A stretch of 64,000 nt of DNA from Sipunculus nudus (lineage: Eukaryota; Annelida; Sipuncula; Golfingiida; Sipunculidae). The DNA is taken from contig CM049310.1 of NCBI GenBank assembly GCA_026874595.1, forward strand, positions 40,801,558 to 40,865,557. Reading direction: 5' to 3'. A program made the translations under genes and the position numbers. Below are positions 10,805 to 63,795 of the stretch, piece by piece. The notes beneath the pieces are model-generated. The model was not told the origin of the DNA, ran no database searches, and was given only the letters and a program-made list of their open reading frames with translations. Positions within the stretch are counted from its first letter, which is position 1. Every line of letters starts with the position of its first letter.

Positions 10805-11654
10805 GTAACCAGGTCGGGTATTTTGTTACCTAAATTAGCGATAAGCGCAGTGGTCAAATCAAACAATTGTCGGTGTATTTCGCACAAAGTTTAAACGGAA
10901 TTGTGGCAGAAACACATGGGATAATATTGATATAAATAATATTTGGAAGACCGCTGTGTTGGCGTGACCGGCGGAAATAAAAAAATAAGTCGAAATTTCA
11001 TTTTTATTTTTATTTCATTTTTTCCATTTTTTAGGGATAGCGGTTTCGAGAAAACGAAAAATTAAAAAATAATGGCCTTAATTTCCTAAAGTTTCTGAGC
11101 CTTTTTAAAATAATGATTAACAACTACTGATCTAATAACAATGTGATAGACAAGCAAGCAGAAGGACTTTGTTCTGCTGTTCTGCCAGAAAATACCCAGA
11201 CAAAATACCCTGACACCCTGAATGATCTGCAACTCCTGCCCTGTTGCCATTTTTTTTCTCGATCCAAAAACTGGCAAATAAACGGGAGTAGACTATATAT
11301 ATAACATAAACTAGTTACATAGAGTGCCATAAGGAATTATCAGTGTCCACCTCAAGAGGTGTGTATGTAATATTAGTCAAACTCTCAACACGGACTTGAA
11401 TTTTTCCTAGCTGTACCTTTTGGCCATACCACACAATCATCAACAATAGTCTGGCATGCTTGACAGTGATTCAAATACAGCTAAGAACAATGCATGTCCC
11501 TGAATTGAAAGTTTTACTGACGTTATGGCATCTCCAGAGACAGGATGCAACATACATAATTTTAGTTTTGTATATGATTAACTTAATGCATCGATCTGAA
11601 TTTGCAATACTACACTTCTTTAATTGTGATAAATGCTTCTCTTTGTATTTTCAG

Positions 11655-12685
11655 GACCCATTCAGTATGGAGCTTTTGCAATATTTATAGTTTTTATGGT
11701 ACTGTGGACCAGGGAATGGAACTGCCTCGGAGGAAAATCAGTGAAATTTCCAATGCAGACTGTAGTGTGTCATTCAAAGTCATATATGCTGAAATATATA
11801 CCGGAATACCTGGCAGGATGTTCAGATGAATGTAATGCTTTCAGGCACACATACACAATAGAAAACCCTCATATCTGTTCAGCTAAGGATGTTCTCTTGT
11901 TGATTGGTGTACGTTCAGTACCCAAGGAAAGTGAGCAGCGAAATTTAATACGCAAAACCTGGGGTTCATACAAGACTATATTCGGCTCAGAACTGAGAGT
12001 TTTATTTCTCATGGGACAGGATAAGGATGAAAAACTACAGCATGAGCTAGTGAAAGAAAACAAACAGACCCAGGATATACTGCAAGCAGATTTTGTGGAT
12101 TCATACCATAATTTATCATTAAAAACCGTGATGGCTTATAAATGGGTCAGCGAGCGATGTGAGCGTTTGCTGTACTTTGCGATGGTTGACGCTGATATAT
12201 TTGTGGACACATTCAAATTGATAAGGTACCTTCAACAACCTGCTGTTTACACAAAACAAGCTTATGTACTGTGTAAAGCTGAATGCGGGGCACCTGCCAG
12301 AGAAGATGTTCGTGGCCATGCCAACGTAACAAAGGAACAATGGATGAGTGATATATATCCACCGTGGTGCTGGGGAGGAGCTTTCGTTTTGGCTGCACCA
12401 ATTGTTAAGCGTTTATATAAGGTTAGCCAGCACACTGCACGCTTTCCTATTGATGATGTTTGGGGTGGTGTTTTAGCAGTGTTGGATGGTAATATATGCT
12501 TTCCAGAATCAGATGAAGCTTTTGTGAGCCCGTGGCACCCTAATGATGAACTAATGAATTCAACAACCTATTTTCACCATCCAGTGATCTTTGCAGGAAT
12601 ACATGAAACAAAGGAGATAGTGGAAAATAAGATCAAATTCTGGTGGCAGAGAACAGCAGATTATCATCTTAATCTGAATGCATGA
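11655..12685 (+). CDS. Beta-1,3-galactosyltransferase-like (GT31), main exon
   Basis: Encodes about 342 residues of a type II Golgi glycosyltransferase of the GT31 family (beta-1,3-galactosyl- or N-acetylglucosaminyltransferases, which use a UDP-sugar). The exon starts in phase 1 after a TTTTCAG acceptor ending at 11654. It opens with a hydrophobic signal-anchor (AFAIFIVFMVLW), then a short stem. Family motifs follow in order: QRNLIRKTWG, VLFLMG, DFVDSYHNLSLKT, a DxD-type VDADIFVD (metal/UDP binding), YPPWCWGGAFVL and IDDVWGGVL. Two N-glycosylation sequons (NLS, NVT) are visible. The usual KxDDDxFV is VDADIFV and the usual EDV is DDV, so acceptor or donor use may differ from textbook B3GALTs. 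It ends in TGA. The first coding exon is upstream and uncertain. An ATG at 11633 lies inside the intron/acceptor and is probably not used. Its paralogue is at 28.1-30.4 kb. Confidence 0.9.
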
Positions 12686-28133: not shown

Positions 28134-30417
28134 ATGAAACGTAAGTAACGTGCATTATTATTGTACCTTACCAGAAAATTTCTCGGGTATACCTTGTCAT
28201 TAATACTAATTATGTAATTCTATAATTACCAATATTGTTATTCCATGATTAACGTTTTATTTATTTATTTTTTTTTATTATTATTATACAACATAAACAT
28301 AAACAAAACAATGACAGCATACAAATACACAGAACAAGTAATAAAACAAACATAATAGAGTGTAACACATACGCCAGTAAGAGCATTTTCATATGTATGA
28401 ACTTATATCGAGCATGTAAATATAATTAACTAAAGTTGATCAATTACAATATTTCCAGGTTTCTTGAAATTCTGTCAAATTCTTCCATGTTTTCCTGCAT
28501 TTTATCTCTCAATATCATACTACTTTTTCAATCTGTGAATAAAGCTGAGAATAGTTAGATTAACATTACTAAATCTACAATCATACAGCTATATTTATCT
28601 CATTAATAATGCAATGTTTTCCAGTTTTCTTATATTATTTTTTTTCTGTTATTCCCAAATAAGCATAGTCAATACATTCCTCCCATTTTATTTTTAAAGA
28701 AAATATTTTACAGTTTTCAATTTCTATGAATAATTCTATATTGTATTATTTGGGTTTTATTTATAAAAAATACTGTTGTACAGACATGTTCAATATTTCA
28801 TGATTCTGCTTGGTTATAAAGCTATTGTTGGCAGTTGGATTTTCAATAGAACTCAGAAAATTAGATTTTTCTTAATATTGCTTTCTACATATTTATAATT
28901 TATATTTTAGATTGCCAGTAAGAAGAAAGTATTGCAGGTTTTTTTCATAGTCTCAGTGTTATAGAGTCAATTGTTCACTTTTGCTGAATCATGAATAAAT
29001 CAAATTAAAATTGAATTTTGCAGAATTCTGACCCATGTATTACAATACTATCTTTTATTGTCATCTACAATAAAATCTCTTTTCTTCTTTTGGAAAAATC
29101 CCTGGCTAAACCGTTTCTTGAAGTCATCTATAAACGTCAGTTCTTCTCAAGGTTACATACCTGAAGAATATATATAGTCTTGCTGGATGTTCTATATGCA
29201 TCAAAGGATGATAACTTCTGGAGTTATATATTTACTTTTAACAATAACAATTTAAGTCGAATTGAATCAGTTTCGAAATCATTAGATCCACAGTAGAACA
29301 AAGCATTCAGAACAACGATACTCTTTCAAACCTTCCACGTGAAGTTTAAAAAAGTATAGGTTTCTTTAAAATTTCTTCATTATTTTGTTTTCCAGGTTGG
29401 AAATGGGTAATGGCTGTGCTTAGCCTTTTCTTTGTCATTTACTTATGGAGCAGAATTCAACACAAGCTGACTCCACCTGTGTTCGGTCTTCGCGAAGTGA
29501 GATGTCATTCCAAGTCAGATTATCTTAAATACATTCCAGAATATTATAGCAATGCGCCAAAGTACTGCAACCAATTTCGTTTTACGTTTTTACTTGTCAA
29601 CTCTCAAATCTGTGACCTCTGGGATTTGTTTGTATTGATCGCAGTTCGTTCAGCGCCGCACCAAATGGCGCAGAGAAATCTCATTCGTCAGACATGGGGT
29701 TCGCAGACGACAGTTCATGGATCTCAAATACGGACAATATTTCTGGTTGGCCGTGGAACAAACGCCTCCGTACAAGAAGAACTCTTGAAGGAAAACAAAG
29801 TGCATCAAGATATTATTCAAGCAAATTTCACGGATAGTTATTATAACCTGACACTTAAAACCATGATGGCTTTTAAATGGGTTTTGGAACACTGCGGCCA
29901 GCTTGGTTATTTTGTCATAAGCGATACTGATATGTTTATTGATGTTTTCAAGCTGGTAAAATATTTACAGAAACCTGGTGTTTGGACGGATTCATCGTAC
30001 GTCTTATGCAAGGCAGAGTATGCAGGACCTGCCAGAGTAGATCGGCGCGGGAAAGCGAACGTTTCGAAAAATATCTGGCCTGCCAACAAATACGCCCCCT
30101 GGTGCTGGGGTGGTGCAAACGTGCTCACAGTGCCTGTGGTTAAAAAACTTTATAACACCGCTATACATACGCCGCGTTTCCTCTTAGATGACGTTTGGGT
30201 GGGTATGCTTGCTACATTACATGGCGGTATTTGCTTCTCCACCAAATCTGACGCTTTCATCAGTCCCTGGCACCCAAACGACAAGCTGATGAATTCTGGG
30301 AAATATTTCGACAGCCCTGTCATTTTTGCTGGTATTCATGATAAGGACGCCATTGTCAATTCCAAAATAACAAAATGGTGGCAACATACATATAATTACC
30401 ATACAATCCCTAAATAA
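28134..30417 (+). CDS. Beta-1,3-galactosyltransferase-like (GT31), complete two-exon coding region
   Basis: Coding exons are 28134-28140 (ATG AAA C) and 29396-30417, joined across a 1255-bp intron with donor GTAAGT at 28141 and acceptor TTTTCCAG at 29391-29395. The spliced frame gives 342 residues starting MKRWKWVMAVLSLFF: a basic tip, then a signal-anchor of about 15 residues, as expected for a type II Golgi enzyme. Motifs by approximate residue: QRNLIRQTWG (95-104), TIFLVG (116-121), DSYYNLTLKT (149-158), ISDTDMFID with the DxD at 179-181, APWCWGGANVL (236-246) and LLDDVWVG (265-272). Family members transfer galactose or GlcNAc in beta-1,3 linkage from UDP-sugar. It shares most motifs, many cysteines and the intron phase with the 11.7-kb gene. 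Sequons NAS, NFT, NLT and NVS are present. The family's EDV is DDV here. AATAAA lies at 30598. Confidence 0.9.
28141..29395 (+). other. Intron of the second GT31 gene
   Basis: Phase-1 intron of 1255 bp, starting GTAAGTAACG and ending in a T-rich tract and CCAG. Very AT-rich, with no nested gene seen. Confidence 0.8.
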
Positions 30418-33385: not shown

Positions 33386-33653
33386 AATGAACACAAAAAG
33401 AAGAGAGACATCAACGCCAACATTTCAAACAATCATATTATTTGGATAACATGTACAGATTGTTGCTAAATTTTCAGCTACCCCTGTAGCCTTCGTCAGA
33501 GCGAGTGACTAACTGTAAACAAAGCTGATAGTGTGACCCTTCGCTAGGTCAACGGGGCTGGCTTGCCAGCTAAACTCATTAATCAATCTGATGTCTTGTC
33601 AGGACTGGCCTGTGTATGTCCACATGAAAACAGGGCTGCTGGGGTGTCAAAGA
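33382..33653 (+). repeat. Left terminal inverted repeat of the PLE
   Basis: Starts AGTCAATGAACACAAAAAG next to (AT)n and ends ggggtgtcaaaga. Its reverse complement is at 36151-36422, differing at about two positions (for example catgaaaac versus catggaaac). The last 63 bases include the start of the coding frame. A hammerhead-like core lies at 33472-33499 on the minus strand. Confidence 0.95.
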
Positions 33654-36140
33654 GTTTATCATCGGAGCCGGGTACAACAATTCTCTAAAAAGGTACGCAA
33701 ACTTGATACTTTGTGGAACACACACCCCTCCTATCGTAAAATTTCCTCGGTACAGTCAGGCAACATCCACCCGGCTAAGACTCTATCCACTTGGTCCCCA
33801 GTCGACCCAACAAAGGAATATCAATCAAACATCGTCAATCTTTCCAGTCAAACACTATCGAATGATCAAACGGATATTTTACATATGGGCTTATCGTTCT
33901 GCCCCACACCAAAAACCATGGACAAAATCCATATGTGCCGGAATAATGAAGATTTCATAAGGAGGGTGCGACTTCATGAGTTTTTCCAGGACCCGATTAA
34001 CAAATCAGAAACCAGATCTTACGAACGCAAGAAACGTGAAAGTCATTGGACCCCTCCACCTGGACGCAACATGTTTATCGACTCTTTCGTAAACACAGCC
34101 CGTAGCCATTTTAATAATTTTCTCTCACAACCCGTTCACATGGGAGTACCAAACGTCAGTCTGAACCACCGTAAAGCAATAGCTGATCTGACAAAGAACC
34201 AGGATATCACCATAAAAGAGGCAGACAAGGGAGGGGCCATCACTCTAATGAACACCTCAGACTACATCAAAACCTGTGAAGATCTTCTTGGGGACACTCA
34301 TACTTATGAACCAGTTCCCGCCACTACAATTGGACTTTTCATCAGGGAGGCCAAGGACATGATTAAGACACTCACCACTTGTGCCAGAGAATTAAATTCC
34401 TCGCTACCTTCCGAACCTAAGCCAGCCACTTTTTATGGACTCCCAAAGATTCACAAGTTAGCAAAATTGGTTCAAGAGACAACAATCGACCAACCTGATA
34501 ACCGTCCATTAAATAACATATCAGATGCTGATAATGTATATCATATCGCAAAACAACTAGGCATACTACCGCCTCTCCGTCCCATCGCTTCCTCCATAGG
34601 AACCCTGACCGAAAACATGTCTGGCCATGTAGATTCGATTCTGCAACCACTTCTCCAGAATATACCAAGCTACATAAAGGACACCACGGATTTTCTCAAT
34701 AAACTGTCGGACATACCAACAATACCCCCTAACACTTTGCTAGTCAGTATGGATGTCACTGGACTGTATAGTAACATTCCTCACACTGGGGGAATAGTAG
34801 CCTGTCGCAATTTCGTGTCAGTTAATGGGTGTTCACCTCAAGTAATCAGCGATACTACAAGCCTTATTCAGTTTATTCTCACCCATAACTTAATCGAGTT
34901 CAATGATAAGTGCTATGTCCAAACCCAGGGTACGGCAATGGGAACCAAAATGGCGCCCGCTTATGCCAATATATATATGTGGGAATTCGAACGGAAACTG
35001 CTGTCCGACAGCCCATCAAAGCCTTTAGCGTATATGCGTTACATTGATGACATATTTATTGTATGGCAACACGGTCCAGAATCTCTAGAACATTTTTTTG
35101 CACAAGCGAATAATGTCAACCCTCATATCAAATTCACAATCGACTCCTCACCCACACAAATCCCATTCCTTGATGTGTCAGTTGCCATCACTGAAGGACA
35201 TTTGACTACCAGCATTTATCATAAACCAACTGACCGTCACAGCTATCTCCACTACAGTAGCTTCCACCCACAACATCTCAAACGAGGGATTGTATTTGCA
35301 CAGATGCTGCGCTACAGACGCATATGCTCAGATTTTAAATGCAAAGCACTTGAATTAGCCAAACATTTCCTCATTAAAGGGTACCCTTTCAAGTTAATCC
35401 TACAAAATTTTGAAAAAGTTTGTAATATTAAACGAAACAGCCTCCTCAGGTACAAAGAAAAAGACACAAATTCACGCATCCCCATGATCCAGGAATTTCA
35501 CCCGGCCATCATCTCTATCAACAAAAATATACAAAAATGCTGGAATAACTTTAATTCAAATCCCGCTACAAATTCTCTTTTCTCCACGCCTCCCGTTGCC
35601 GCTTACAGACAACCTCCCAACCTCAAACACATGCTTGTCCGCTCGAAACTACACAAACAGAACAGCCCGTCAGGGAATGTCAAATGCGGTGACCGCCGCT
35701 GTGAGATTTGCGATATTTTAAACACCAAACCCACATTTCAGTCCCCAGGATCTAACATAACCCTCAGGCCAGGCCCCTTTTCTTGCAATTCCTCAAATGT
35801 CATTTACTTCATTACTTGTAAAAAATGCCCCAATGGGGAGGGAAATTATATAGGAGAAACCGGCACCAAATTCAGGCTCAGAATGAACAACCACAAAAAA
35901 ACCATCCGCGACAACACTCCCGGATTCCCCGTGGCCGCACATTTCAACAAATCCGACCATTCTCTTCGAGATTTAACATGCACCATCCTTAAAGGCAACT
36001 TTCCCTCCAGCAAAGACAGATTCACATCAGAACAAAGGCACATTCATACACTACGTACGCACATAAAAGGATTAAACAAAGACTTGGCTTTTCTCTGTAA
36101 ATACCCGGCACTCAGCACATACTTTTCCCCTCGAGACTAA
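33591..36140 (+). CDS. PLE polyprotein: reverse transcriptase and GIY-YIG endonuclease
   Basis: 849 residues, uninterrupted. The reverse transcriptase motifs are VSMDVTGLYSNIP (about 384-396, catalytic Asp), QGTAMGTKMAPAYAN (about 444-458) and RYIDDIFIVW (about 483-492, the IDD/YxDD box). A cysteine cluster (CGDRRCEICD, about 700) sits between the domains, as is usual in PLEs. The C-terminal GIY-YIG nuclease reads VIYFITCKKC (about 736) and NYIGETG with RLRMNNHKK downstream (about 751-772). The protein nicks target DNA and copies the element RNA at the nick. The ATG is inside the left terminal repeat, so the first 20 or so residues are encoded by repeat sequence; an internal start is possible. 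The full domain set and unbroken frame make it potentially functional. Confidence 0.92.
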   Translation: MSCQDWPVYVHMKTGLLGCQRVYHRSRVQQFSKKVRKLDTLWNTHPSYRKISSVQSGNIHPAKTLSTWSPVDPTKEYQSNIVNLSSQTLSNDQTDILHMGLSFCPTPKTMDKIHMCRNNEDFIRRVRLHEFFQDPINKSETRSYERKKRESHWTPPPGRNMFIDSFVNTARSHFNNFLSQPVHMGVPNVSLNHRKAIADLTKNQDITIKEADKGGAITLMNTSDYIKTCEDLLGDTHTYEPVPATTIGLFIREAKDMIKTLTTCARELNSSLPSEPKPATFYGLPKIHKLAKLVQETTIDQPDNRPLNNISDADNVYHIAKQLGILPPLRPIASSIGTLTENMSGHVDSILQPLLQNIPSYIKDTTDFLNKLSDIPTIPPNTLLVSMDVTGLYSNIPHTGGIVACRNFVSVNGCSPQVISDTTSLIQFILTHNLIEFNDKCYVQTQGTAMGTKMAPAYANIYMWEFERKLLSDSPSKPLAYMRYIDDIFIVWQHGPESLEHFFAQANNVNPHIKFTIDSSPTQIPFLDVSVAITEGHLTTSIYHKPTDRHSYLHYSSFHPQHLKRGIVFAQMLRYRRICSDFKCKALELAKHFLIKGYPFKLILQNFEKVCNIKRNSLLRYKEKDTNSRIPMIQEFHPAIISINKNIQKCWNNFNSNPATNSLFSTPPVAAYRQPPNLKHMLVRSKLHKQNSPSGNVKCGDRRCEICDILNTKPTFQSPGSNITLRPGPFSCNSSNVIYFITCKKCPNGEGNYIGETGTKFRLRMNNHKKTIRDNTPGFPVAAHFNKSDHSLRDLTCTILKGNFPSSKDRFTSEQRHIHTLRTHIKGLNKDLAFLCKYPALSTYFSPRD

Positions 36141-55573: not shown

Positions 55574-56378
55574 TCATCCCCGACTTTCGTTGGGCGCAAC
55601 GACGACGTCGTCATATGCATCGTCCGAGGGATGGTGCAGGTAGGTCTGGTCAACAGTCCTTGTTGGGAAGTTAGTTTCTGAGGCCCTTTGATCGGTGTGG
55701 GATGCAGGATTGGAGTTAACATATCGCGCAGGCGGTGAACAGGCCAATGCTGAGGTCCCGTGATCACTTCCAGAAAGGCCATGGGTGTGGGACGTGGGAT
55801 TTGAGTCAACATATGGCGCAGGCGGTGAACAGGCCAACGCTGAGGCCCCGTGATCGGTTCCAGAAAGGCCATGGGTGTAGGACGCAGGATTGGAGTTAAG
55901 GTATCGCGCAGGCGGTGAACAGGCCAACGCTGAGGCCCCGTGATCGGTTCCAGAAAAACCATTGGTGTGGGATGTAAGATTAGAGTTAACATATGGCACT
56001 GGCGGTAAACATGTAGGCGGCGCGGGCGTGTCATCAGTTTCCCACTCATCAGCTGTGTCAGTAAACACACACCCTGAAGCCCCTTGACTTTCCACACTTT
56101 CATAAACATTCTCGGGACTGTAATCGGGGGCATCTTTATATTCTTCTGCGACGTCACCAAGGCTTGTTGTCCACGTGAACCGACCAGGATTCATCCTGAC
56201 CGCTCTGTTGCCGATGTAAGTCGGGTAGGACACGGCCCTCCGGGGGGTTACCTCACCGCGGGGAAGGTAAAACCCGAAACAAGCGTCATCAGTGACGTAA
56301 GGATCGTCCTCGTTCTCGTAGTCTTCTAAGTGGAAACTGCAGCGTCGATCACGAATCAGAGTGTCATACTGAGGATTC
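55574..56378 (-). CDS. C-terminal tail exon with 30-residue repeats
   Basis: The last exon encodes 267 residues plus stop. The first half is acidic and tyrosine-rich (DYENEDD, YKDAPDYSPE, VYESV). The second half has about 3.5 copies of a 30-residue repeat (90 bp, about 55716-56010 in DNA): PPxxYVNSNPTSHTHGLSG followed by TDHGASALACS. Y-x-N occurs in YENE, YVNS (twice) and YLNS; one repeat has YVDS instead. pY-x-N is the known binding consensus of the Grb2 SH2 domain, so the tail may dock adaptors when phosphorylated by another kinase. It is otherwise low-complexity and predicted to be disordered. Confidence 0.85.
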
Positions 56379-59300
56379 CTGCAAAATAAAATCAACGCTA
56401 AAGCAGAGTATCAAATGTATGTAGCACCTACCTCAAGGAAGCACAGACCTTCAAACAAACGCTAAACATGGCGAGGATGGATGGTCATAGAAAAATACAA
56501 ATAATTTAAATGCCTTATCCATGCCCAATGCTGCCTCACCACAAATAAAAGAGAATCTGTATTGCATAAGGGTCCTTGTATTTCCGCTGAATTATCTGAT
56601 TGCAGAATAAAATTCTAGCATGAACGAAACAGGCGATGGATGTCGCTTATGTTGTATAAAACCACCGATAGGTAATGCCTGTTTTGTGTGACTACTATTT
56701 CATCAAATCTACGTCAAACAAAATAACACACATATTGTAATATTTCTTAGAAAAATATAAATGAATTAAAATGCCTTACATCAGCGGATGATAAGACCCG
56801 TAGACAGATAAAGAGCAAAAGGAAATTTTAAACAGGTATCAGGAATAAAATACAGCAATACACAACAAAAGTGGTACACAAAAGGACTGACTAGCCAGCA
56901 TCAAACTCGCATAATCATCAGGTTGGCCCCTTTACAAGATGCATTATGATAAAAAATGCATTTTGATCTGCATTTCCATCTGCCAATATACATGGTTCAT
57001 GAAGCAAATGTGACATATGGACGAATGAGAAAGCCCGAGACCATCTCTTTGACCAATTCAGGGTGCTGAGTGGTTGGCGGCTGGACGATTGAATAAACAG
57101 GTGAATTGCGCAAGGGAAGTGGATTGGTCTTCGGCTGACCAAGGGTGTCATCTTTTGAATGTATCTGAAGGCAATGTCCCCAAGCTTACATAGTTCCACC
57201 GATGAGAGGTACATTAAGGAACTTTTATGTCCTTGTAAAACAGAGGTAGATATACCTGAACCGAAATGAAAACTAACCTGTTGTCCAGACAGCGACTGAT
57301 TTCTGAGAACATAGGACGACGATGACTCGGGTCTAACATACAGGTCTTTATGAGGTCGTACAGCCATTCTGGACAGCCGGGGGTCCGGGGGAGGGAGATC
57401 CGCTTAGCTTGCTGGTGAACTACCTAATAATAAAAATAATAATAATAAATAAATAAACCCGAGTCTATAATTAATGTTTTCGTCAAACATCTTGTTCATC
57501 TGGATGTTTCAATCATGGCATGCGAGACTAGTGTTTGACACATCCCTCACGCAAGCTCACGACTTAAGCGATTTTTCCTGAGGCGATAACAAATACTTAA
57601 ATGAGCCTTTTAACCTTAAAACATGTTGGATTAACACGAAGTATAGTGTCTTCTCTTTGAAATAAATTAGTACTTGTCAAAATATTGCCCTAAAACCGCA
57701 GGCCTACTCCTGTGCAAGAGTGTTTAAAACAGTGGACCGGGAGCGATCACATGTCGGCGTCAATATTATCTCAAAATACCTGGAAACAGGACTGACTCGG
57801 CCCAAAAGGCCCCTTGACCTATTATACATATATGTTGCAACAAGTTTTACAATGAATTGGGCCCATGGACCGTAATGTACATCCAACAGAGTTATATCAG
57901 AGGACATGAAGGTCCATGTATATGTGCCTGATACCTGTAAGAGGATGTGCAATATCGTATTTAAGATCCATTATTAGATCTAGTATGGCTTGCGGCTAAT
58001 TATCATGGAATTTGCCCGTCACTTGATCTCAAGAACCAGGCCATAGCAGGGCCCTAATTGAGGAACTATGTATTCCAAATTATTCTTCTTTTTATACTTG
58101 TCATAGGGTCACATACCTGTTTGAGTGGTATGTCGAAGTACGGAGCCACGTGATTGGCAGGAGTACCTGGGACACTCTGCCATGCTCTGAGCACCTCCGC
58201 AATTAGCAGTCCGAAGGCCATGACGTCACTCTGCATTGTAAACTTTCCATAACTGTTCGTCTCGCGGGCCAACCTATTAAGAAGTTATATTGATGTTCAG
58301 CTAAATTAGCATAATTTTGATTTTAAGTACAGATTACATTAATAATATGATGTGATTTAAATCACAAAATAACTGCATTTAAAATACTTGTATGTCATAT
58401 TTTATATGTATTTTAAAATGACAAAAAAATTAATACAAACATGATGTGCCATTTAGTGTGTGTAAAGTATAACCAAGTGAAACCACAAAGAAATTCTTAT
58501 AATCACTTCGCCTAATGTCAAGAATCCAGTGGTACATTTGAGATGATTTATTTGCGTTTGGCCGGCAGCCATCACTTACGAACCTAGGATGTTTTCTCTA
58601 TTCTCAGTGTTTAGAAGACTTGCGTCAAAAAACGCGTCCTTCAAACGATATTGTTTATGAACGTTATTCACGGCCTTGATATTATAAGTACATTCAATAT
58701 TTATGATTCTACTTAATCCAATATTTTATCATTCATCCGCAAATAATTGTTTCCTACCATTTCAATATACCCTTATCCATTTTTTATATTAATTAAAAAA
58801 AATTAAAACTACTAATGAACAGTACACCTGCCACCTAACATGAACCATCCCATAATAAGAGTAAAACCTACCATCTGGAAGTTGGTCTGTTGTAGCCCGG
58901 GGTGCCTATCTGGTTCAAGTTGACCGACACATCTTTCATGCTTTCATGAAACCTGTATGGCCCAGGTACCAGGCGACGTGACCGACCCAGTTGTCCAACA
59001 CACACAAGAGGTTCACAGCTCTAGTGAAGGGGCAAATGGAAAACATTCATTTAATGACATTCATACCTTCATAATATATCAATTTCTTATATTATATATC
59101 TAAGTCAATCTTATAAAATGAAATATGTTTTAAATTATAAAGATATTTTTAATATGTTTTAATCATTTCACCAATTTTGTAGCAAAAATGCTGGGTTAGT
59201 TTTCTGAATATTGAAATCTCGAAAAAATTACAAATCCCAGATGAAACAGCGGGATATATAGTGAAGTATAGCATCAACAGAGCATAAATACTTACGGGTC

Positions 59301-61641
59301 CTGTCAGAGAAACGTAGACAAATCTGGCCTGGAGGTGTGTATGGACTAAATTCTTCATGTGCAGGTACTCCATGCCTAAGGCTATCTGATGGAAGATGGA
59401 TATCAGGCGTGGTAACTGGTCCTCCGTCGGTGACAATGACAAGGCATAATCTAGCAGCGTCTCTGTACTCGGAGTGAGCATGCGCAGAAAGACCCGACGT
59501 CCCTCATGGCGGATGCCAAGAACCTTAACCAAGTTTTCATGCTGAAGACTCTCGAGGGTTGCACGATGGGCTCCCTCTGGCTCGCCGTCAAGAGGCACGC
59601 GAACCTGCATGGTTTATGAATACACACTGTACATATCTTTTTGGAAATCTGAGTAAGAATTTATTTACACTTATCGTAGACCTGGTAGATTTGATAAGTG
59701 ATCATTGGGTCATGACGCTCACGTGACTAACATGAAAACATGGCGTCAGATTCCCAATTATTGGTCACAATTTGAAGAACTTGATTGTGTATTGTGTAAA
59801 AACTTTGCAGGAGGACAGCAATATATGTCTATTTAAAAGGTATTACTTAATTATTAGTCCAGGATAAAATATAAGATTGCCGAGACAATACTGTGAAACG
59901 TCTAATATTAGTTATTCTCAAACTGGGTACAGGGTAGCAAAAAAAGGTTACAAATGATGTGATGGAATTTATACTCAAATTGGTTATGGCTTTGTCAAGA
60001 TTTCCAAAAGGTCTGCTTAACAGAAAAAGACTTTTGATGGGCGAATGCTCCAAAAAGAAAAAAGCTCAATGCGAAAGGAAATAAACCTTTAAATTCGCTG
60101 CCTGACGGAAATCACAATTTTAAAGATTTTGGCTATGGCTCGGATGGTTCTTCAAACAATGTGCACCAAAGAAAATACGAGATTCATGTCTGAAATTGGG
60201 TATCCCTTATCCTCTTATACTCACCAGAATTACATTACAGATAAAATTCAAACACATTAGAACAGTTTCCAAGATAGTTCATGTGAAAGGAAGTACGAGT
60301 TTTAGAGAAAATGTATACGGCAGTAGCACCTATTAGCTGCAATGAGATGAAACCAGTATACAAGGATTTACACTATTGTAAACCACCATTTACAATTACA
60401 AATTTTCATTTTTACAACACTCACTGTATAACCCAGCGAGTGTTCTTGAATACGCTCTAGTTCCGGGTCGTCTGCTTCGTGTAACTCTGCCGGGTCACAC
60501 CACACGTCCATACTCTAAATTACAAAGCGAACATAGTTACACAGATGAACTTACACACTCAAAAAAAGTTAAGAGTTATGTCACAAATTTTGTCACCTTG
60601 AACGTAATAGAAAATGTGTATTTCAGCCCCCGAAAAGTGTTGCGAATTGTTTGTCGCTTTATAATATAAAAACCGATGTAATATCCTTAAATTTCTTTAG
60701 TTTCCTTATACTTTTGCTAAAATTATCTAGGCTCCCATTTGTTCTAATTTTGCTCATTCCGCTTCAGAAAAGCTACAGTAATTCAGAATTACCTCCAGAG
60801 TACTGAGAGGCCGTATTCCTCTGCTTTTCCGTCGTTCCTCCCGTTTTCTTTGTTCTTCTTCTTTCCAAAGTTCTGTTTTGGATAAAAAATATTTTAATCA
60901 AACGTCTAATCTTTCTATAAGATATCTAGTTGATACAAATAGAGACAATATAAATATTAACCTGTCTTTTAATTGGTGGATCTTCTAGGAAAACATTTTG
61001 ATTAAGACAATTTTTCGGCTTTTTACTACCAACCAATTATTTTCCATTTGCTAAAGGCCTTTCTGTCCACTGTATATTAGTGGTTGCTTTGCGTTATTTC
61101 TGCCTTCTTGCAAATTATTGTCCTTACGACAGCCTTGTACCTCCAAACTCCAATGTCATTTCTTTTTCCGATTGTTACGGTGTCGCGTATATATAAAGAA
61201 AACAATTGCACGATCAGAATAAACGATATCAAATGATTTATCGCATCCTCATTCTTATATGATCACTGCTCATTCAAAGACCAACACATATACCCTCTTG
61301 CGCTCAACATTGCCTACTCTAAATGGAAACGTATTTAAACATTCATGTTTTTTTTAACTCACCCTCTAATGACGTCAGATTTCTCAGGCTGTCTGGAATG
61401 CCCTTTTATAAAAATCAAATAATAAAATCACCATGCTTCTTCTGTAGCGACTGTTACTGATAATAACCATCATCATCATTATAAAAATAATCACATTATT
61501 AATAATGATCATAGCAATTGTTAAAATAACTACGATAACGACCGTGTGCCCATTGTTTTAGCAATAATTACATTTTAAACATATAAACTATTTTCTTTGT
61601 ATAACCATTGAAGCAACATTTATTTATTCATATGAAGTATA

Positions 61642-61690
<49 letters not shown>

Positions 61691-63795
61691 ATAATGTAAT
61701 AAAATATAATAATATATAATAAAATATTCTGTACTCACTCTGTAGGGTTCTGATGGCTGTGATGGGTCTCTGACAGGAGGAATGTACTCGTCTTTTGCTA
61801 TTTCTGAAACTACACATTTGCATAATTTATTCAATATTAGCTCTGTCAAAAAGGAGTCCTATGCTTTTAACACTGTTGTAATATTAAGGTCGTATATATA
61901 AACAAATCTTGTAAATTCACTGATCAGGCATGTAGGTATAGAACTATTTATGACAACACGCGTGGTTTGGTGTTAAGGTAGCCACATTTATAAATGACCC
62001 ATTGTTTAACTTGGTAGTAAAATATCTTCGTCATTGGATAATATATCTTGAGATTAGGTGTTTAGATATACAATGCCATATACATCGTATCATTTGGTGT
62101 GATGTATCTACTTTAATAAACGGTCCCTCGGATGTTTGGTTAAACAAATATACGTTAATGAATTATCCCATATGTGGAGTTGTATTAAGGTTTCTATGTG
62201 CATTATTATCTATTTTGTGATTTGGTCTTTTGATATTTTTCAACAAGTGGTCGGTGGTGTGGCTAAGTGTTACAGTATCTACTTCCAATCATACGATTTG
62301 GCGTTAAGGTATATACATTAACTTCTAATTAACTTATTTACCTTGAAACAACTAGAATAATTTAGCATATGTAAGAAGAAGTATAATTAGGAGGGGGACC
62401 GTACGTAGGAAAACCGGACCAATTTAACTGAAAAACATCATATTCTATCTTACCTAGCACATATCTTATTGTAGCGTCGATGTTATTTTTGCATAGATAA
62501 TGAGACAAGTTAAACAATTTTGAAATTAACAATAATAGGATACAGGATATATATAGTATCGGACATACCCGAGAGAAAGTACTCCAGTACTTCGAGAATC
62601 CTGGAAGCTCTAATACGGTTCTTTGGAATATACGGGAAGCAACGTAAGATGTAGGTGGATAGCGCTTGGGGTAGACATGCCGGGGCCTCCGGTCTTATAC
62701 CGTGGGTCAGAACCTGCATGTAAAATACAAACAATAGTATACGAACTCCTGCTAAAATCCAGCTATTCCCTTGCCTTATCTGCAGAAATTATGTGAGTTC
62801 TGACGTACGTATCGTACAAATTAATAAACTGTATAGTATTTTCGGTGCCGGATATTGGAGATGATTTGTCTACAAGTTTTTAGTTATCATAGCAATGTCG
62901 ACAAAAGGAAAAAAAAATGCAGTCCAAGGTTTTTGTTTGCATATCTGCTGAAGTTAAAATGTAATCGTCTGATCTGAATCCAGATGTTCTTCTTTAATGT
63001 GTTTGGATTAATTTAGTGGGCCACCCATTAAAAAAGTACAAGACATATTCTTCAGTTAATAGACGTCAGATAAAGGCACCTTTTAAACCTTAATGGTTTT
63101 CCAAGGAACAGTTTACCCTTATATGGAAGGTCAAAGAAGGATTACATACAGGAAGGGACCCTCCGCAGGAAGTCCTCAGAGAAACACTTATGAAGGGGTT
63201 TCATCGCAAACATTTTAAATTAAAGGGTTCCCCCTCAAGCTGAAACGATGACTTGTTTATTTTTTAAGAACACTCATGAAAGAATTGCATCTAAATTGCT
63301 CAGGCCATATGCTTAATAATACCACGGGTTAGTTAGGCATAATATGAGGCATATAAAAAATTAGGTTTAATCTATGAAAAAGGTGATTTAAAGCTTATGC
63401 CAGGAACTGATTCAGTGGACGCAATACAAATTAGCAGAGTCTAATAATAACGGACGTAAAACGCAACGTGGGTTCTTGAGCAATATATATTCTTAATACG
63501 AAGCCAGCTGAGTCCAATGATACTGAATGATACTGAAACCAGAAGTCTTACAGGTATACCAAAATTCAAAACTGATATGATGAGAGAAGGTATAGGGAGA
63601 GACCGTCTTCCCATACCTCTTTAGCCTTTGCTGTAGCGTCCATCCCGTACAGTTCGTTGAAAGGAAAACATCCCATCGTTGCAGCCTCAAGAATCACGTG
63701 ACCAAGCATATATGTATCCGAGGCCAGCGAATAGCAGCACGCCAAGATTGACTCTGGTGCACTCCACAGTAACGGTACGGGGTCCTGTTTCTTAC
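55574..63795 (-). CDS. Tandem kinase-like protein with C-terminal pseudokinase, 5'-partial, 11 exons
   Basis: Exons, in transcript order: 63795-63617, 62713-62569, 61803-61739 (acceptor at 61809 also possible), 61402-61363, 60872-60793, 60514-60425, 59604-59296, 59020-58872, 58273-58117, 57423-57278, 56378-55574. All junctions have GT-AG and every phase matches, giving 720 residues from the window edge to the stop. The layout is the C-lobe of kinase-like domain 1 (1-107), a linker (about 108-185), tyrosine-kinase-like pseudokinase domain 2 (about 186-453) and a tyrosine-rich tail (454-720). Domain 2 lacks the key catalytic residues (HTH for HRD, GQLG for DFG), so it is probably a regulatory or scaffolding domain. 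No membrane segment is seen; one could be upstream. JAK kinases also carry two such domains, but there the pseudokinase comes first and the active kinase last. The family could not be named. Confidence 0.85.
57278..60514 (-). CDS. Exons for pseudokinase domain 2
   Basis: Exons 60425-60514, 59296-59604, 58872-59020, 58117-58273 and 57278-57423. Recognisable tyrosine-kinase landmarks are QHENLVKVLGI (subdomain IV), IFHQIALGMEYLH (VIa), SDVMAFGLLIAEVL (IX) and CPEWLYDLIKTCM with HRRPMFSEI (XI). Changed residues are VAVK to VRVP (Lys lost), HRDLAARN to HTHLQARF (catalytic Asp and metal-binding Asn lost), DFG region to GQLG, and the APE position to ARE. No glycine-rich loop is visible and the N-lobe is short. 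The fold is probably kept while catalysis and perhaps nucleotide binding are lost. Confidence 0.88.
60793..61809 (-). CDS. Linker exons, including a 40-nt microexon
   Basis: Three small exons (61739-61803 or -61809, 61363-61402, 60793-60872) encode the linker between the kinase-like domains. It contains DEYIPPVRDPSQPSEPYR and a highly charged stretch, LWKEEEQRKREERRKSRG, likely helical. The first exon has two in-frame acceptors 6 nt apart (TGTAG and TTTCAG), so two residues may be optional. An (AT)n tract at 61648-61687 lies just downstream of its donor. Confidence 0.75.
61648..61687. repeat. (AT)n microsatellite in intron
   Basis: About 20 AT repeats, 50 bp from a splice donor of the kinase-like gene. 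Confidence 0.95.
62569..63795 (-). CDS. Exons for kinase-like domain 1, C-lobe
   Basis: Exons 63617-63795 and 62569-62713 encode PVPLLWSAPESIL (subdomain VIII, APE intact), YSLASDTYMLGHVILEA (subdomain IX; Asp kept, but the usual DVWSFG is DTYMLG), and ACLPQAL...RCFPYIPKNRIRAS (subdomains X-XI, with the conserved Arg). The catalytic and DFG loops lie on exons beyond the window, so whether this domain is active is unknown. The first exon starts in phase 1, predicting the phase of the missing exon. Confidence 0.85.

Follow-up and report, generated by a model that had tools for sequence, protein, structure and literature searches.

Can one animal polypeptide combine an active-looking kinase of one family with pseudokinases of another? 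The question is raised by a gene on the minus strand of a 64,000-nucleotide stretch of the Sipunculus nudus genome (contig CM049310.1, positions 40,801,558 to 40,865,557; hereafter the window). An earlier note, confined to the window, had described eleven exons at 55574–63795 encoding the C-lobe of one kinase-like domain, a charged linker, a complete pseudokinase and a docking-like tail. Coordinates above 64000 in this work continue the window numbering into the adjoining stretches of the same genome.

Gene architecture

The gene, referred to here as gene 1, has 25 exons running from 79020 to 55574 on the minus strand. All 24 introns are GT-AG, the phases agree throughout, and the joined frame encodes 1677 amino acids with a single terminal stop. 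From N- to C-terminus the product consists of an ASK-type kinase, a middle region without a Pfam match, pseudokinase 1 (PK1), pseudokinase 2 (PK2) and a tail of tyrosine-containing repeats: three kinase folds, two of them catalytically degenerate. The eleven exons described earlier were recovered exactly, as exons 15–25, with GT-AG introns, consistent phases and one frame. The proposal of tandem kinase folds in one gene also held, but the count of two did not, since extension past the window gives three.

Coding GC content is 0.49, against 0.35 in the introns. Intron DNA of matching lengths seldom remains open in the frames needed (the product over all 25 exons has a log10 of about −35; this is a rough bound, as the exons and frames were of our own choosing, and zero fractions were set to 1 in 2000). 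In a genome-wide exon-by-exon search with PF07714, none of exons 15–25 was among the 152 matches listed.

An ASK-type kinase and two pseudokinases

Residues ~25–285 form a complete kinase domain (Pfam PF00069, E = 1.1e-62). Among the best 60 of 2762 PDB matches, the leading 13 are all MAP3K5/ASK1 (8e-48 to 7.4e-47), about 40 bits ahead of MAP3K2, the family that follows at 1.7e-35. Many MAP3Ks are missing from the PDB; by nearest match among solved kinases, the domain is of the ASK type. Its catalytic motifs are all present in gene 1 (GHGSFG, AIK, HRDIKDSN, DFG and APE), and the same motifs are kept in a paralogue described below, where the glycine loop reads GHGNFG. Judged by its motifs, the N-terminal kinase is probably catalytically active. 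Residues ~286–795 comprise a Pro/Ser-rich linker followed by the middle region, in which neither Pfam nor NCBIfam detects a known domain and PDB matches begin only at E = 0.09.

PK1 (residues ~796–1066) and PK2 (residues ~1151–1410) both match PF07714, the profile suggested in the earlier note, above the Pfam cut-off (E = 6.3e-22 and 1.4e-26, respectively). Among the PDB matches of PK1 (best 60 of 1152), an EGFR chain whose score comes from two stretches leads, ahead of PYK2 and FAK, and ABL ranks lower; the nearest match of PK2 is ABL1 at 7.2e-19 (best 60 of 1179). In PK1, HRD is replaced by LRN and DFG by DFS, and the residue taken by eye to be the VAIK lysine is Lys in gene 1 and Asn in the paralogue. 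In PK2, HRD is replaced by HTH and DFG by QLG, and the glycine loop is unmatched, the Pfam match beginning at profile position 54. The paralogue keeps the HRD losses of both domains (LRN, HTH). By these signatures PK1 and PK2 are tyrosine-kinase-like pseudokinases, in which the fold is kept and the catalytic residues are lost, and both are predicted to be inactive. The second domain had been recognized as a pseudokinase from the window itself. The first had been left as a possible kinase, a reading that has to be given up: its catalytic loop, which lies outside the window, reads LRN instead of HRD, so that it is a pseudokinase as well. PK1 and PK2 show no significant mutual similarity, and we therefore rejected a recent duplication of one into the other.

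A head-to-head paralogue

A local tblastn search, covering 263 kb of the locus and 30 kb more, located a second copy of the gene at 134120–188988 on the plus strand, inverted head-to-head and 55 kb upstream of gene 1. (In the 263 kb, gene 1's own matches were excluded, and no account was taken of matches with E between 0.26 and 9.9 that fell off register or beyond the two copies; in the additional 30 kb, matches above E = 2 were disregarded.) The paralogue has 25 exons in the same order and phases as gene 1, GT-AG introns and an open frame of 1844 amino acids. Exon length is equal in both copies for 22 of the 25 exons; the differences of 9, 6 and 516 bases in exons 10, 22 and 25 are each divisible by three. 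Substitutions between the copies at codon positions 1, 2 and 3 number 164, 108 and 276. Outside the tail repeats, identity is 84.5% over 1523 aligned residues, and it reaches 92% in the pseudokinases versus 81% in the kinase.

The ratio of nonsynonymous to synonymous substitution rates (dN/dS, NG86) is 0.25 in the kinase, 0.62 in the linker, 0.28 in the middle region, 0.18 in PK1, 0.15 in the second linker and 0.19 in PK2. These ratios, taken between the two copies, show purifying selection on the kinase, the middle region and both pseudokinases. The copies are close: dS is ~0.26, and blocks of intron sequence align at 66–82%.

Two partial fragments resembling exon 21 (PK2) lie near the copies, at 112173–112265 on the minus strand and at 917–1196 of L029; they are perhaps relics of further duplications. 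An internally repetitive block recurs at 85534–86738, 123609–125052 and 162970–164441, in the intergenic region as well as in the paralogue's intron 15.

The tyrosine-repeat tail

The tail spans residues 1411–1677. As the earlier note had proposed, it is docking-like: a 90-bp repeat, present 3.5 times with 85% matches, encodes 30-residue units that carry a Y-V/L-N/D-S motif. The number of units is ~4 in gene 1 versus ~8 in the paralogue. With a degenerate thirteenth unit excluded, the tyrosine is found in 11 of 12 units and the asparagine at +2 in 10 of 12; the Grb2-type SH2 docking motif is pY-x-N.

The exon 25 acceptor and the start of the tail are conserved in the paralogue. The first 66 tail codons (exon 25, residues 1411–1476 of gene 1) have 98.5% DNA identity between the copies and a dS of 0.046, far below the overall value, which suggests that gene conversion lies behind this near-identical stretch. 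A further stretch of 30 codons has evolved fast (dN 0.384, dS 0.144). The dN/dS ratio is 0.60 in the repeat tail and 1.24 in the non-repeat tail, the latter being a mixture of the near-identical 66-codon and the fast 30-codon stretches.

One gene or two neighbours

The weak point of the one-gene model is the join between exons 10 and 11. If the model were wrong there, two neighbours would be expected: an ASK-type kinase gene (exons 1–10) and a pseudokinase-tandem scaffold gene (exons 11–25). Several features count in favour of such a split. In both copies, a frame continued past the exon 10 donor runs into a stop a few codons later, an AATAAA lies downstream of exon 10 at 68253 in gene 1, and an in-frame ATG GGT ATG stands just before exon 11 of that copy. 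The exon 11 acceptor is modest, ranking 21st of 24, with 374 of 1259 AG sites reaching its score. Moreover, the two copies have diverged so little that two adjacent genes, duplicated together, would be preserved as well.

AATAAA, however, is common here, with 26 occurrences in ~24.6 kb of this strand, and the start codon that the split requires in gene 1 is missing from the paralogue, where an in-frame TAG before exon 11 is followed by no ATG while the acceptor is retained. The exon 10 donor is strong: under a profile built from the remaining donors, only 8 of 1318 GT sites reach its score, a count that includes the site itself and other true donors. This donor is identical in both copies, the phases agree in both, and the gap between exons 10 and 11 is 678 bases in the paralogue and 1180 in gene 1. 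The testimony of the paralogue is good but not final, because the intron blocks can still be aligned. Taken together, we consider it very probable that exons 1–25 form one gene, and two neighbours very improbable. Within the window, the earlier note had allowed that 62.5–63.8 kb and 57.3–60.5 kb might belong to separate genes; the sequence speaks for their union, with exons 16–21 joining in phase in both copies.

At the 5′ end, the first exon contributes 17 codons to the modelled protein, and the kinase domain opens with the exon that follows. An in-frame TGA lies 20 codons upstream of the ATG, at the same codon in both copies. Between the two is an acceptor-like TGTAG, so a further 5′ coding exon may exist. 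Extension past 64 kb had been suggested as a way to see the rest of the first domain and any receptor part. The former was found; no receptor part was seen among 156 open reading frames of at least 38 amino acids on this strand (78.9–103 kb, read by eye), ten of which were run against Pfam and gave no match, and the upstream DNA blocks common to both copies contain no long conserved open frame.

Comparison with known multi-kinase proteins

Does this layout belong to a known family? The earlier note knew of none, and our searches of the available databases and of the open-licence literature agree: no animal protein with this layout was found in the titles and abstract beginnings of open-licence PMC papers. 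Nor did relatives appear elsewhere, with no match in plasmid records and none confirmed in viral contigs, both poor places for an animal gene. A protein of this layout may well be annotated but unnamed in public animal proteomes.

JAKs consist of FERM and SH2 domains, then a pseudokinase, then an active tyrosine kinase. Like them, gene 1 combines within one chain a tyrosine-kinase-like pseudokinase and an active-looking kinase, the activity in gene 1 being predicted. Its layout is nevertheless unlike theirs, as had been noted from the window: the active-looking domain is an ASK-type Ser/Thr kinase and comes first, two pseudokinases come after it, the second being the last fold, and Pfam detects neither FERM nor SH2 in the protein. 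PEAK/PRAG1 proteins have one pseudokinase and a tyrosine-motif docking region, with no active kinase in the chain. They resemble gene 1 in joining a pseudokinase to a tyrosine-motif region, and differ from it in that gene 1 has two pseudokinases and an ASK-type kinase. Obscurin/SPEG, GCN2 and RSK likewise have more than one kinase fold per chain; they differ in having two folds each, of other kinase families, with a pseudokinase ahead of the kinase in GCN2 and two kinases in RSK.

In ASK1 itself, thioredoxin-binding, TPR and PH domains precede the kinase, which is followed by a coiled coil and a SAM domain (PMC10972558). The N-terminal kinase of gene 1 is nearest to that of ASK1 among solved kinases, but the modelled protein starts with this domain and continues with the two pseudokinases. 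The thioredoxin-binding, TPR and PH domains are not in the modelled protein, for which the TGTAG leaves room for a further 5′ exon, and no SAM domain was matched in five pieces covering the 1677 residues (Pfam, E up to 5). Gene 1 therefore shares with ASK its type of kinase domain but not, as far as seen, its layout.

Plant tandem kinases such as WTK1/Yr15 and Sr62 also join a kinase and then a pseudokinase in one protein (PMC6170490, PMC8956640). Their domains are of receptor-like/Pelle types, those of Sr62 being Pelle/DLSV (PMC8956640), whereas gene 1 has ASK-type and tyrosine-kinase-like folds, three in all, plus a middle region and a tyrosine-repeat tail; among the PDB matches listed for it, MAP3K5 and tyrosine kinases rank best, and not Pelle or plant receptor-like kinases. 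A chain with three kinase folds is in itself nothing new among eukaryotes, given that soybean has 74 kinases with two or three such domains each (PMC4378628). The excerpt on the oyster kinome reports some kinases with multiple catalytic domains and uses neither the term pseudokinase nor the term tandem (PMC4883820).

If the arrangement is as modelled, it would add a mixed-family design to those of JAKs and plant tandem kinases, namely a MAP3K that carries two tyrosine-kinase-like pseudokinases in cis. It would lend itself naturally to testing how an active kinase is gated by pseudokinases of a different family, with the two diverged copies under selection as material. The layout of GCN2 already strains the view that, among animal kinases, a kinase and a pseudokinase in one chain are unique to JAKs. 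That view is stated in PMC6170490, and it is strained too by the obscurin family, with more than one kinase fold per chain (PMC7957886).

Possible mechanism and alternatives

How might such a protein work? The best explanation, to which we give roughly even chances, is a MAP3K that is regulated in cis by its pseudokinases and recruited through its tyrosine tail. The product would be a MAP3-kinase-like signalling protein, probably cytoplasmic, with the N-terminal ASK-type Ser/Thr kinase as its output. The two pseudokinases and the middle region would hold, sense, regulate or scaffold this kinase in cis. The Y-V-N-S-type motifs of the tail, once phosphorylated by another tyrosine kinase, would form a docking surface, probably for SH2 adaptors. 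Clustering through the tail and the pseudokinases could then allow the ASK-type domains to activate in trans, and the activated kinase would feed an MKK and, through it, JNK/p38.

Some observations weigh against this account. The position of ASK1 Thr838 (our numbering) reads Asn in gene 1, in the gapped alignment of the PDB search, and also in the paralogue. The Tyr and Asn columns of the tail repeats are conserved no better than several others (Ser12 is present in 12 of 12 units), and the middle region, which may be helical, was judged so by eye. The substituted threonine, together with the better conservation of the pseudokinases than of the kinase between the copies, would also fit a pure scaffold, in which the ASK-type domain has its motifs but the protein acts as an adaptor or as a competitor of canonical ASK. 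We think this unlikely: the glycine loop, Lys, HRD, DFG and APE are retained in both copies, and the low dN/dS of the kinase domain points the same way.

By analogy, the protein might instead be an animal counterpart of plant tandem kinases, for which a decoy model has been stated (PMC8956640). The pseudokinases would serve as bait for pathogen factors aimed at tyrosine-kinase signalling, and a stress or death response would be set off by the ASK-type kinase. A kinase and pseudokinases sharing one chain, the local duplication accompanied by two partial PK2 fragments, and the fast parts of the tail, both in repeat number and in the 30 codons where dN exceeds dS, are what such a protein might display. 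Selection on the pseudokinases is, however, purifying and not diversifying, and thirty codons are a small sample; we regard this alternative as distinctly unlikely. The wider proposal, that gene 1 represents an undescribed animal kinase family in which an active ASK-type MAP3K and two tyrosine-kinase-like pseudokinases share one polypeptide and so couple tyrosine-kinase signalling to a stress MAP kinase cascade, possibly as an integrated decoy sensor, appears to us unlikely.

Exon coordinates and other features of the window

Table 1 Exons of gene 1, with the part of the protein that each encodes and the evidence for it.
Feature	Coordinates	Strand	Evidence
Exon 1, kinase domain	79020-78970	-	spliced model
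Exon 2, kinase domain	78475-78354	-	spliced model
Exon 3, kinase domain	76574-76441	-	spliced model
Exon 4, kinase domain	76060-75960	-	spliced model
Exon 5, kinase domain	75792-75648	-	spliced model
Exon 6, kinase domain	73762-73704	-	spliced model
Exon 7, kinase domain	72087-72016	-	spliced model
Exon 8, kinase domain	70502-70402	-	spliced model
Exon 9, kinase domain	69656-69588	-	spliced model
Exon 10, linker	68794-68415	-	spliced model
Exon 11, middle region	67234-66537	-	spliced model
Exon 12, middle region	66132-65988	-	spliced model
Exon 13, rest of middle region and PK1 N-lobe	65698-65118	-	spliced model
Exon 14, PK1 catalytic loop and DFS	64297-64087	-	spliced model
Exon 15, PK1 APE motif, C-lobe	63795-63617	-	splicing, Pfam, PDB search, paralogue
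Exon 16, PK1 C-lobe	62713-62569	-	splicing, Pfam, PDB search, paralogue
Exon 17, linker	61803-61739	-	splicing, paralogue
Exon 18, linker	61402-61363	-	splicing, paralogue
Exon 19, charged linker	60872-60793	-	splicing, paralogue
Exon 20, linker joining PK1 and PK2	60514-60425	-	splicing, paralogue
Exon 21, PK2, HRD to HTH, N-lobe start with glycine loop unmatched	59604-59296	-	splicing, Pfam, PDB search, paralogue
Exon 22, PK2, DFG to QLG (HLG in paralogue)	59020-58872	-	splicing, PDB search, paralogue
Exon 23, PK2, APE to ARE (by eye)	58273-58117	-	splicing, Pfam, PDB search, paralogue
Exon 24, end of PK2 C-lobe, 96.6% nucleotide identity to paralogue exon	57423-57278	-	splicing, Pfam, PDB search
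Exon 25, C-terminal tail, 3.5-4 copies of the 30-residue repeat (YVNS/YLNS/YVDS/YVNS), TGA at 55574-55576	56378-55574	-	splicing, repeat analysis

A search of the window for RNA families returned none at gathering thresholds. Elsewhere in the window, two single-exon open reading frames on the plus strand, at 11633–12685 and 29410–30417, resemble beta-1,3-galactosyltransferases (PF01762, E = 2e-37 and 9.8e-40) and look mutually related by eye. An open reverse transcriptase frame of 849 amino acids lies at 33591–36140 on the plus strand (PF00078, E = 1.2e-8); by eye it looks like a Penelope-like element with a GIY-YIG-like C-terminus.

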